Part shown: piece by piece, positions 9,968 to 13,892 of the stretch
Layout: each line of letters begins with the position of its first letter
How positions within the stretch are numbered: position 1 is the first letter of the stretch
Source: Leptolyngbyaceae cyanobacterium MAG.088
Lineage (GTDB): Bacteria > Cyanobacteriota > Cyanobacteriia > Phormidesmidales > Phormidesmidaceae
Length of the DNA: 34,954 nt
NCBI GenBank assembly: GCA_019634055.1
Contig: JAHQVZ010000189.1
Location: 1 to 34,954 of the forward strand
Reading direction: 5' to 3'
Translations under genes and position numbers: made by a program
Notes under the pieces: generated by a model
Databases searched by the model: none
Told to the model about the DNA's origin: nothing
The model's input: only the letters and a program-made list of their open reading frames with translations

Positions 9968-11413
9968 TCAAGGGGTATGGGTGCTGTAGTAGTTGTCTAT
10001 GTGGCTAAACAACTGGTGAATATGGTCTTTGGTTGTAAATGGATTAAGCAACACAGCCTTTAACCATCGCTGCCCACGATAGATAGGCAATGATAAAAAC
10101 GTAGTGCCTTGGTGTAGTAGCCACTGTTGCAATTCATGATTCCAGTGGTCTAGCTGGTCTGCCGACAAGCCCGAGAATTCAGCCCGAAAACACACTAGAT
10201 TCATCTGGGGTTCATTAGCCAGTATGAGAAAAGGCCGAGCTTTAACAGCCGTGGTAAACGTATGAGTCAGGGCATAGTTGTGATCAATGATGGCACTGTA
10301 ACCTTTGCGACCAATATGCTGTAGCGATAGCCATAACTTAAGAATGTCGGGATGGCGGGTGCCTTGCACGGTGAGTTCGCCTAAATTTGGCCAGTTATCG
10401 TGATCATGCATGTACGGGGCCATGACTCGAAACTGTTGCTGGAGCTGATCAAACTTGCGAAACATGACCATGGCGCAGGTCTTGGCCACATAGAGCCATT
10501 TTTGCGGATTAAACGTCACGGAGTCAGCTTGTTCGATGCCTGTTAACAGCGATTGATAGCGGTCTGACAACATCAGTGCTCCACCGTAGGCGGCATCCAC
10601 ATGGAACCACAGTTGATTGCTCTGGGCGATACGAGCCATTTCGGCAATGGGGTCAATGCTTCCAGTAACGGTAGTGCCAGCGGTCGCAACAATGGCAAAA
10701 GGATGCTGACCATCGGCGTTGGCTTGGTCTAACTTGGTTTTCAGATCGGTGATATCAATTTGAGAATTCTGGTTTGTGGCCACGGGAATAGCGGCTTTGG
10801 TGCCTAAGCCCATGATCATTGCAGCTTTTTGAAATGAGGTATGGGCCACTTCTGAGACAAAGAAAACAGGTTTTTGCCCTGACGTAATGCCATGGTCTAA
10901 GGCGTTAAATGCCTGATTACGGGCCACGATTAAAGCCTGTAAGTTAGCCAGACTACCGCCACTGACTAAAATACCTTGGGCTTTGGGTCCAAGGCCAAAC
11001 AGTTGAGCGATGTGCTTTAAAACCAGAGTTTCTAAGCGTGAGAAAACCGGCGACATTTCCACACTCAGCATATTGTTGTTGAGGGCGGCCACCAGCAGGT
11101 CTGCTATCACTGATACGGTGGTTGGAATGGAATCCATGTGGCCTATGTAGCCTGGATGGGCGGCATTCATACCATGGTTAAGGTGGGCTTTGATTTCTGC
11201 CAGCAAGGGAGCAATCTCGACGGCATGATCAGGTAATTTGGCCCAGCCATAGTCAGCTGATATCAAAGGCTCAGGCAGTGGAGAGCGATCCGTTGCCTGA
11301 GTCATGCTGTCAACCAGTAGGTCAATAACCTGATTTAAAAGAGTTGCGATCTCATCTCGATTCTCACCATCGGGGTGAATAAATGCCGTTGTCGGCAAAG
11401 CCGAAAAATCCAC
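9968..11413 (-). CDS. Group II pyridoxal-phosphate decarboxylase
   Basis: The 481-residue enzyme belongs to the aspartate aminotransferase fold, group II decarboxylases (glutamate, aromatic amino acid, diaminobutyrate decarboxylases). Visible motifs are 'SGGSLANLQAL' for phosphate binding, 'VATAGTTVTGSIDP', 'WFHVDAAYGGA' with the Asp that pairs with the pyridine nitrogen, and 'FNPQKWLYV' with the Schiff-base Lys. The substrate cannot be read from the sequence; an amine product is expected. The only start in frame is GTG at 11413, since an upstream stop follows with no ATG between. The gene begins 36 bp after the lectin-lysozyme-peptidase gene on the same strand, so they probably share a transcript. 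Confidence 0.88.
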   Translation of the reverse strand: MDFSALPTTAFIHPDGENRDEIATLLNQVIDLLVDSMTQATDRSPLPEPLISADYGWAKLPDHAVEIAPLLAEIKAHLNHGMNAAHPGYIGHMDSIPTTVSVIADLLVAALNNNMLSVEMSPVFSRLETLVLKHIAQLFGLGPKAQGILVSGGSLANLQALIVARNQAFNALDHGITSGQKPVFFVSEVAHTSFQKAAMIMGLGTKAAIPVATNQNSQIDITDLKTKLDQANADGQHPFAIVATAGTTVTGSIDPIAEMARIAQSNQLWFHVDAAYGGALMLSDRYQSLLTGIEQADSVTFNPQKWLYVAKTCAMVMFRKFDQLQQQFRVMAPYMHDHDNWPNLGELTVQGTRHPDILKLWLSLQHIGRKGYSAIIDHNYALTHTFTTAVKARPFLILANEPQMNLVCFRAEFSGLSADQLDHWNHELQQWLLHQGTTFLSLPIYRGQRWLKAVLLNPFTTKDHIHQLFSHIDNYYSTHTP

Positions 11414-11449: not shown

Positions 11450-13024
11450 TCAATAAACCCACCGGACGCGTGGTTTTCCAGGGCGCATGCCTAGATGTAC
11501 AAAACCTCGTTGGGCACCGTAGCCAATGCTATGGGGAAACGTTTGGTCGCACCAGTATTCCACCTCATAGATACTGACATCTTTGATATAAAAATCAACA
11601 GCTCCCGTATCTGGCACATCATACAGATGTTCTGAAAGACGAGCCCCCCCAACCCGTTTATTCACCGTAGGGGGACGATAGCCAGAGGTAATAACCAGAG
11701 GGTTGCTGCCGAAATAATCACGACATTTTTCAAGAAATAGGCAGATTTCGTAGGCAGTTTTGCACTGAAAGCTATGTTGAAAGCGTCGCTCCTCATCGTA
11801 AAGAGCGAATTCTCCATAGGTAATGTGGGGGGTGATCAATGTATCGAAAGGCATATTCGGTGAGAGGCTGGCTCCGACGGGTTGAGTGCCAATAACGCCA
11901 AAGATGCGATCCAGATTTTCCTCAGGTTTGCGATCGTCTGCTTCGTTGCGATCATCCTCCCAATTAGGAGTAGACCCAGTGGGCTTTTTGCAGAACAGGG
12001 ATGCCTCAGCCAGACGGCGGCGACGTAACCCTGCTTCTACAGAAGTGCCTGGATTTCTATACTTAACAAATTGGGCTTCGATCCAGCGATGGTCATTCCA
12101 CTGGTCAGGAAAGTCGCACACTCGAGTAATAGACTCAAAGTTATAGCCACGATAAAACGCTGACCCCAAGTTGTAAGCAAAGCTATACAGAGCGCCGCGC
12201 TGGTTACTATGCATTAGACTCCACGTAGGAATTTTCTCTAAGGCCAGACGACATGATTTATCGACATGATCAATCAAGTATTCTTCTGCTTGTGGTTGGG
12301 TGATGATGTCGCCCTGTTTCACGGGGACGCCGTCAGGATAACGAGTCGTGCCATAGCCAATGGTGGGCAGTGACCACCCCTGCAGCGGATCGGCATAAGC
12401 TTTGGCACGGCCATCGGGTAAGACCTCAGCATAGCCCTCAAATTCTTTGATTAACTCAATGCCAGAACGAGGAATTTTACCCAGTAAAGAGTCTGATGGC
12501 CGTTCGGGTTTAGATCTGGGGGGATTGGATGGGGGAGGCTGAATAATTTGTCTACTGACGGGCACTGCAATCACCCCCAGCTGATCGAGCCAACGCCCAC
12601 TTTGGCCATAAAAGCCAATGACTTGATGATTGGGCGGGACTGCTAAATCTGTGATGCGGCCAGTCTGTTTGCCAAAAAGAATGCTGCGACCTTGGCTTGT
12701 GACTAGCTCGATGGAGCCAATGTAGCGTTTGCCCGTCAAAACAACGTTAGCGATATATTCATCCCTATCTAAAACAAATGATTGCAGTGTGGAACCGTCG
12801 CCGCCATGGGGCGGTAGGTCAGCGCTCACCCAGCGCATTTGTACTTGGTCAACATAACGCCCGACCCTGACAAGTACTTCCACTGGTTTTGCTTGGAGGG
12901 CAACCACCTGATCACTAGCCTGGGGCGGCCAATTAATATCTGAAAAGGATTTACCGCCGCCGCCACCGACTGATAAGCTACGCCAGAGTTTTCCGCCTGA
13001 GATATTTGTGGATTCCATAAGCAT
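11450..13024 (-). CDS. Jacalin-like lectin / GH24 lysozyme / M15-type peptidase fusion protein
   Basis: Three domains lie in one 524-residue chain. Residues about 15-155 look like a jacalin-type lectin: 'GGGGGKSFSD', 'GRYVDQVQMRW', 'GGDGSTLQSF.L...EYI', 'GFYGQSGRWLDQLG'. A Pro-rich linker (163-178) follows. Residues about 185-345 are a T4-type GH24 lysozyme, with Glu196 in 'EFEG', Asp212 in 'AYADP' and Thr221 in 'PTIGYGT' at the catalytic positions. A second linker is acidic. Residues about 395-524 resemble peptidase M15A: 'ITSGYRPPTVNKRVGGARLSEH', Asp477 in 'GAVDF' and His510 in 'FVHLG' as zinc ligands. The combination predicts a sugar-guided hydrolase that cuts both glycan and peptide parts of peptidoglycan. 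There is no signal peptide. A second in-frame ATG two codons on is an alternative start. Confidence 0.85.
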   Translation of the reverse strand: MLMESTNISGGKLWRSLSVGGGGGKSFSDINWPPQASDQVVALQAKPVEVLVRVGRYVDQVQMRWVSADLPPHGGDGSTLQSFVLDRDEYIANVVLTGKRYIGSIELVTSQGRSILFGKQTGRITDLAVPPNHQVIGFYGQSGRWLDQLGVIAVPVSRQIIQPPPSNPPRSKPERPSDSLLGKIPRSGIELIKEFEGYAEVLPDGRAKAYADPLQGWSLPTIGYGTTRYPDGVPVKQGDIITQPQAEEYLIDHVDKSCRLALEKIPTWSLMHSNQRGALYSFAYNLGSAFYRGYNFESITRVCDFPDQWNDHRWIEAQFVKYRNPGTSVEAGLRRRRLAEASLFCKKPTGSTPNWEDDRNEADDRKPEENLDRIFGVIGTQPVGASLSPNMPFDTLITPHITYGEFALYDEERRFQHSFQCKTAYEICLFLEKCRDYFGSNPLVITSGYRPPTVNKRVGGARLSEHLYDVPDTGAVDFYIKDVSIYEVEYWCDQTFPHSIGYGAQRGFVHLGMRPGKPRVRWVY

Positions 13025-13102
13025 ATGCCGAGTCTAGTTATGTGCGTTGTTCCAGACTTTGGGGCGTCTGGGGTATGACTAAATTGATAGGCTGTTGCTA
13101 TG

Positions 13103-13122
13103 CATCAAGCTGGCACTTGATG
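13103..13122. repeat. 7-bp inverted repeat between cysH and the lysozyme fusion
   Basis: CATCAAG and CTTGATG flank a 6-nt loop. The site lies 27 nt past the cysH stop codon on the minus strand. It is followed by no U run, so it is a poor intrinsic terminator; it could mark the 3' end of cysH mRNA or a site before the fusion gene. Confidence 0.3.
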
Positions 13123-13148
13123 ATTTCGGAATGCACACATGTTGATTT

Positions 13149-13892
13149 TTAGGTATGAATACCGCATTCGGTTTTAATGCTGCCGCGCCATCGCCCAGCA
13201 CGTTCATCTTCTCCAGCATTGACCTTGGAGGTTAAAGGCTGATCGCCAATGCTGGTGTAACCCTGGTCATATAGAGGGTTATATAAAACATCATGGGCAA
13301 AGATATAGCGCCAAAGATCTTTATGGGTCCAATGGGCAAGAGGGTTAATCTTGAGTCGCCCATGGGCGTCAAGTTCCAGAATTTGCATATTTTGACGGGT
13401 GACCGACTGATCACGCCGACGTCCGGTAATCCATCCCTGGACCGATAGGTTATTCAATGCTTGTTCCATGGGTTGCACCTTAGTCAACTTATGGAATAGG
13501 GCCACATCTCGCTCCCATAATTTATCGCCGTACTGGTTTGTAAAGTCCTCACGCGTAGGGGCAGTGCGATAGATGTGAAGGTCAAGGGTATAAATCTCTT
13601 TTGCCTTTTGAGCAGTTGCTAGCGTCTCTGGAAAGAGATGGAGCGTATCTAAAAAGATGACAGGAAGGTTTGCTTGAAGCTCGTGGTAAAGCATGTGAGT
13701 GACGACCAACATGCTAAAGGAGGTCATTTGGACCAAATTGGGAACTGTGGCAACGGCCCATGCCAAGATTTCTTGGGGAGTGGCCGATGCAAACCGACGA
13801 TTCAGTTCGATGAGATCTAACTGACTGGGGACAAAGGCAACGGGGTCAACCAGCTGCTTGTTAAGCGAATGCGCTTCTATGCAAGAAACCAT
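13149..13892 (-). CDS. cysH: Phosphoadenylyl-sulfate (PAPS) reductase
   Basis: CysH reduces PAPS to sulfite in sulfate assimilation, using electrons from thioredoxin or glutaredoxin. The 247-residue protein ends in the signature 'ERAGRWRGSIKTECGIHT', which contains the catalytic Cys. Upstream are 'VIFLDTLHLFPET' and 'ITGRRRDQS', both typical. The Cys pairs that bind [4Fe-4S] in APS reductases are absent, so the substrate should be PAPS. The usual 'SSFGxQ' PP-loop region reads 'MTSFSMLVV' here, a deviation in the nucleotide-binding loop. The gene diverges from a glutaredoxin-like gene across 232 bp. Confidence 0.93.
   Translation of the reverse strand: MVSCIEAHSLNKQLVDPVAFVPSQLDLIELNRRFASATPQEILAWAVATVPNLVQMTSFSMLVVTHMLYHELQANLPVIFLDTLHLFPETLATAQKAKEIYTLDLHIYRTAPTREDFTNQYGDKLWERDVALFHKLTKVQPMEQALNNLSVQGWITGRRRDQSVTRQNMQILELDAHGRLKINPLAHWTHKDLWRYIFAHDVLYNPLYDQGYTSIGDQPLTSKVNAGEDERAGRWRGSIKTECGIHT

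Follow-up and report, generated by a model that had tools for sequence, protein, structure and literature searches.

Synechococcus phage S-CBS3 encodes a protein, gp23 (PHROG 28234), in which a GH24 muramidase domain is followed by a Peptidase_M15_3 domain. This protein and its relatives in IMG/VR are about 350–363 aa long and share with the cyanobacterial protein described here the domain order, the catalytic residues and the C-terminal ...RVRW-Y end. Unlike it, they are phage-encoded and have a short N-terminal region where the cyanobacterial protein carries a jacalin domain. The GH24 and M15 pair is thus already known as a common layout of cyanophage-type endolysins. In the fetched sample, 52 open reading frames on viral contigs have it, a count that should hold although the underlying domain cuts are off by a few residues. 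Two of these contigs (L042 and L043) were read in context; on L042 an integrase and tail-like genes are present. Griffithsin, banana lectin and artocarpin are the described counterparts of the N-terminal part. They have the β-prism family profile, the GG loop and the GxxxD loop in common with it, but they are plant or algal lectins, stand-alone or repeated, without wall hydrolases.

The gene under study lies in a window of 34,954 nucleotides from Leptolyngbyaceae cyanobacterium MAG.088, where it occupies positions 11450..13024 of the minus strand as an open reading frame of 524 aa. Translation probably begins at the third codon (M3, base 13018) rather than at M1, because a MES/MET start is common to the orthologues. 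The original prediction placed a jacalin-like lectin, a GH24 lysozyme and an M15 peptidase on this one chain, and Pfam agrees, with scores two to three times the curated cut-offs for all three domains. The Jacalin profile matches residues 19–152 with 60.5 bits (cut-off 22), Phage_lysozyme (GH24) residues 206–340 with 58.1 bits (cut-off 22.3) and Peptidase_M15_3 residues 401–511 with 68 bits (cut-off 23.2). Loop conservation also supports the lectin domain (12569..12970). Profiles, alignment and a structural model set the muramidase domain at residues 183–346 (11987..12478), and profiles and alignment set the peptidase domain at residues 391–524 (11453..11854), both on the minus strand like the rest of the gene. 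A Pro-rich linker, residues 157–182 (12479..12556), joins lectin and muramidase. PHROG 28234, an endolysin family, matches the C-terminal two thirds of the protein, hereafter the lysin, at 277 bits. The closest match of the GH24 and M15 half among annotated records is S-CBS3 gp23, with 46.6% identity over residues 188–524. The claim that the three-part combination is undescribed therefore has to be divided: it fails for the GH24 and M15 pair, and it stands for the jacalin fusion, which is unusual. No description of the three-part architecture was found in the open-access papers searched. What is new is the jacalin head together with the chromosomal setting and the genus-wide fixation.

The active-site residues of the lytic half are intact. 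Forty-eight homologues were aligned, 42 of which come from viral contigs. All of them have E196, R450, H466, D477 and H510, and 47 have T221; at position 212, 27 carry D and 20 carry C. The GH24 catalytic triad follows the rule E-D/C-T, with variation between D and C, and the lysin has it as E196, D212 and T221. The zinc ligands of M15_3, two His and one Asp, are present as H466, H510 and D477. All six catalytic residues named beforehand are therefore in place. AlphaFold models both domains at pLDDT of about 75–95. According to Foldseek, the GH24 model matches phage GH24 endolysins with E down to 4e-8, and the M15 model matches the zinc D,D-peptidase 1lbu weakly (E 0.02, prob 1.00). A profile search with the M15 domain likewise found only 1lbu, H466 being aligned with its SRH motif. 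The GH24 half is predicted to cut the MurNAc-GlcNAc bond and the M15 half a peptide bond, which may be of the D,D, L,D or L-Ala-D-Glu kind. Less favourable to the predicted activity, no general base was identified in the lysin M15 site, and its spacing from His to Asp is 11, which is longer than that in the S. albus D,D-peptidase, where it is 7.

Of the three predicted folds, GH24 and M15 are thus borne out by modelling, and the jacalin segment gave a low-confidence model only (pLDDT 46, TM of about 0.3, built by AF2 from 6 sequences), whose best Foldseek matches, of low quality, are jacalin-type lectins. The assignment of the jacalin fold rests on profile matches to griffithsin, banana lectin and Parkia lectin. 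A profile built from the lysin jacalin and three relatives from MACPF-jacalin proteins finds mannose-binding lectins with E down to 4e-18. Both the GG loop (G20 G21 x G23 G24) and the loop G143-x-x-x-D147 are invariant in 9 homologues. In artocarpin and Heltuba the mannose site consists of Gly, Asp, a third residue and Asp (PMC6359319). D147 is aligned with the conserved last Asp of mannose-binding jacalins, whereas the first site Asp (D138 in artocarpin, D136 in Heltuba) is replaced by Arg144. Owing to this replacement, the mannose specificity of the lysin lectin is uncertain.

The lysin is a conserved chromosomal gene. It is flanked upstream by a cysH-like PAPS reductase gene (13149..13892, minus strand) and downstream, across a gap of 36 bp, by a gene for a PLP-dependent decarboxylase (9968..11413, minus strand), and both flanks are conserved. 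The full-length lysin was found in all eight genomes of the window's genus (8/8, its own genome included) and in one genome of a sister genus (G445); full-length proteins with 71–77% identity are encoded on five further Leptolyngbya-type contigs. Wherever the context is visible within the genus, cysH stands on one side of the lysin and the PLP decarboxylase gene on the other, in a long syntenic block that includes murE, recA and xseA. In four species of a related genus (L251, L252, L253 and L255) the same flanks adjoin each other at 59–106 bp. This arrangement points to a single gene that was gained in the window's genus or else lost in the related one. The sister-genus lysin (L037) sits in different surroundings. 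In G437 (L254:514-1498) the cysH/PLP-decarboxylase junction holds another insert, an open reading frame of 314 aa on the opposite strand that encodes a hydrophobic, transporter-like protein.

The substitution pattern shows pN far under pS in the lysin orthologues. Median dN/dS over nine orthologues is 0.098 for jacalin, 0.047 for GH24, 0.046 for M15 and 0.46 for the first linker; because the synonymous sites are saturated the values are rough, and only the contrast between the fast-evolving linker (about 0.46) and the domains (0.05–0.10) is to be trusted. These substitutions fit purifying selection on all three domains, with a loose linker.

The two lytic domains seem to have different histories. 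In the GH24 tree the lysin is sister to single-GH24 proteins of the same bacterial family (support 100/94) and lies apart from the S-CBS3 type, so that gp23 falls on another branch. These single-GH24 proteins (L143–L145) are about 70% identical in GH24 and are chromosomal like the lysin, but they have another N-terminal region and lack M15 and jacalin. In the M15 tree, which is weakly resolved and has one very long branch, the lysin is placed among phage endolysin domains together with one bacterial protein. Since GH24 is nearest to bacterial proteins and M15 to phage endolysins, the lysin would be a domesticated mosaic and not one captured endolysin. Capture of a whole S-CBS3-type endolysin is unsupported, as GH24 groups with bacterial GH24 proteins. 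Relatives of the jacalin domain were absent from the viral contigs, phage records and plasmids searched. The window's own genome also encodes a second protein with GH24, PG_binding_1 and M15_3 (L140:4638-6740), which has 701 aa and starts directly with GH24.

Jacalin domains are rare in cyanobacteria, occurring in 11 of 386 genomes. Their partners in the scanned proteins are Lipase_3 (two cases), a Tle1-like phospholipase, GH18, an amine oxidase and Laminin_G with LTD, and three further jacalin proteins have no recognised partner domain. Among the large proteins, L235 combines jacalin, Laminin_G and the Tle1-like phospholipase, and L234 and L237 combine jacalin with Lipase_3. Within the cyanobacterial family to which the window belongs, the partner is MACPF (by Pfam in two proteins, by the same layout in the third). 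At three loci (L139:2993-8806, L137:1952-7693 and L138:4080-10169) a MACPF-jacalin gene with three transmembrane segments is directly followed by a wall-hydrolase gene whose product also starts with three. The second product has GH19 with M15 or weak VanY domains in G418 and G399, and PG_binding with a weak M23 match in G430. The jacalin domains of these MACPF proteins are 33–36% identical to that of the lysin, and the M15 domain of the adjacent G418 gene is 59% identical to the lysin M15. These systems differ from the lysin in being membrane-anchored, in having a pore-former in place of the muramidase and in carrying lectin and M15 on two proteins. The unit in G399 has genes for a caspase and a CHAT protein nearby. 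Two other proteins (L141:4437-6953 and L142:4290-6797) have a similar three-segment start and a GH24 domain 55% identical to that of the window; L142 also contains SH3-type domains, and its close neighbours include genes for a caspase-domain protein and a WD40 protein. The recurring combination of a lectin with a lytic domain suggests that the lectin may be the aiming part. A broader and rather tentative idea is that jacalin could serve cyanobacteria generally to aim their lytic effectors, be they pore-formers, phospholipases, lipases or wall hydrolases; the lysin would then be a soluble wall-hydrolase branch that one genus fixed on its chromosome for lysis directed at kin or competitors.

The protein was predicted to be non-secreted, and hydropathy indeed reveals neither a signal peptide nor a transmembrane segment. 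Holin, spanin and immunity genes were not identified beside it. Because it has no signal peptide, transmembrane segment or linked holin, we infer that the lysin is kept in the cytoplasm of living cells. It would reach its substrate only once the membrane is breached, by the cell's own death, phage lysis or predation. The lectin may then anchor it to mannose-like wall or sheath glycans, while GH24 would cut the MurNAc-GlcNAc strand and M15 the peptide. The likeliest benefit would be the digestion of dying or neighbouring walls, as in trichome breakage, necridium clearance or the killing of close competitors; the Gram-negative outer membrane, however, would block an attack from outside on intact neighbours. 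We assume, with about even chances of being right, that the lysin is a domesticated mosaic, namely a bifunctional peptidoglycan hydrolase that is targeted by its lectin, is kept cytoplasmic and acts after membrane breach on the walls of dying or neighbouring cells. Of the roles first proposed, that of a domesticated endolysin is the best. Domestication is supported by the full-length copies across the genus, the synteny, the adjoining flanks in the four species of the related genus and the low pN. A bacteriocin role is possible; no immunity-gene candidate for it was identified.

The main rival is self-lysis in cell death. The lysin might be an autolysin that is stored in the cytoplasm and serves controlled self-lysis or cell death during development. 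A membrane pore or holin encoded elsewhere would release it onto the cell's own wall, whose polysaccharide the lectin would bind. The missing signal peptide and the genus-wide conservation suit this, as do the membrane-anchored MACPF-jacalin genes that adjoin wall-hydrolase genes in the same cyanobacterial family and the caspase genes close to such lytic genes in G399 and G391. However, neither a holin nor a death regulator was identified beside the lysin, and the genome of the window, with its single jacalin, lacks the MACPF-jacalin pair. Self-lysis seems a plausible minority reading. Another reading takes the released protein as a defence against targets that bear mannose, such as eukaryotic grazers or fungi, whose bacterial partners or food the lytic half would attack. 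Although this jacalin class binds mannose-type glycans and other cyanobacteria fuse jacalin to membrane- and chitin-attacking domains, both catalytic domains belong to peptidoglycan-cutting families and eukaryotic surfaces have no peptidoglycan, which makes such a defence very improbable. There was no PADLOC match to a known anti-phage defence family.

The remaining explanations depend on what surrounds the gene. Thylakoid-anchored contractile injection systems of cyanobacteria have been linked to ghost cells, and two candidate effectors of Anabaena carry a DUF4157 domain (PMC8894136). The lysin was suggested at the outset as a cargo of a type VI or contractile injection apparatus, and the genome does have a Phage_sheath_1 gene and two tube-like genes, likely of a contractile injection system, on another contig (L273, G000 contig C263). 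By Pfam, however, the lysin has no DUF4157, VgrG or PAAR domain, it is unlinked to the apparatus, and housekeeping genes flank it in every syntenic genome; with neither linkage nor loading domain, we consider the cargo role unlikely. Least probable, to the point of being nearly negligible, is that the lysin is a functionless endolysin left by a decayed prophage. The GH24 and M15 half does have a phage endolysin as its closest annotated match. Yet all domains are under apparent purifying selection, the gene occupies the same site across the genus, the jacalin domain has no relative in the phage collections and the GH24 domain is not of the S-CBS3 type. The scanned window neighbours contain no phage genes, as originally predicted, and housekeeping neighbours stand in all syntenic genomes where a phage lysis cassette would have a holin. 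A prophage remnant is rejected on synteny, substitution pattern and neighbours.

Read as a domesticated hydrolase, the protein clearly illustrates how a lysin of phage type was apparently assembled and then kept among the core genes of a bacterium, its apparent address label being a plant-type lectin. If active, it would unite two wall-cutting activities in one sugar-targeted enzyme that is ready for use. To our knowledge, the lytic enzymes of trichome breakage and dead-cell clearance are poorly known, and an active lysin would provide a genetic handle on these processes in filamentous cyanobacteria.

The gap between cysH and the lysin contains an inverted repeat, ATCAAG-TGCCAG-CTTGAT, at about 13101–13123 of the window. 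The TCCG and TTGAT columns around this repeat turned out to be invariant in five orthologous gaps.
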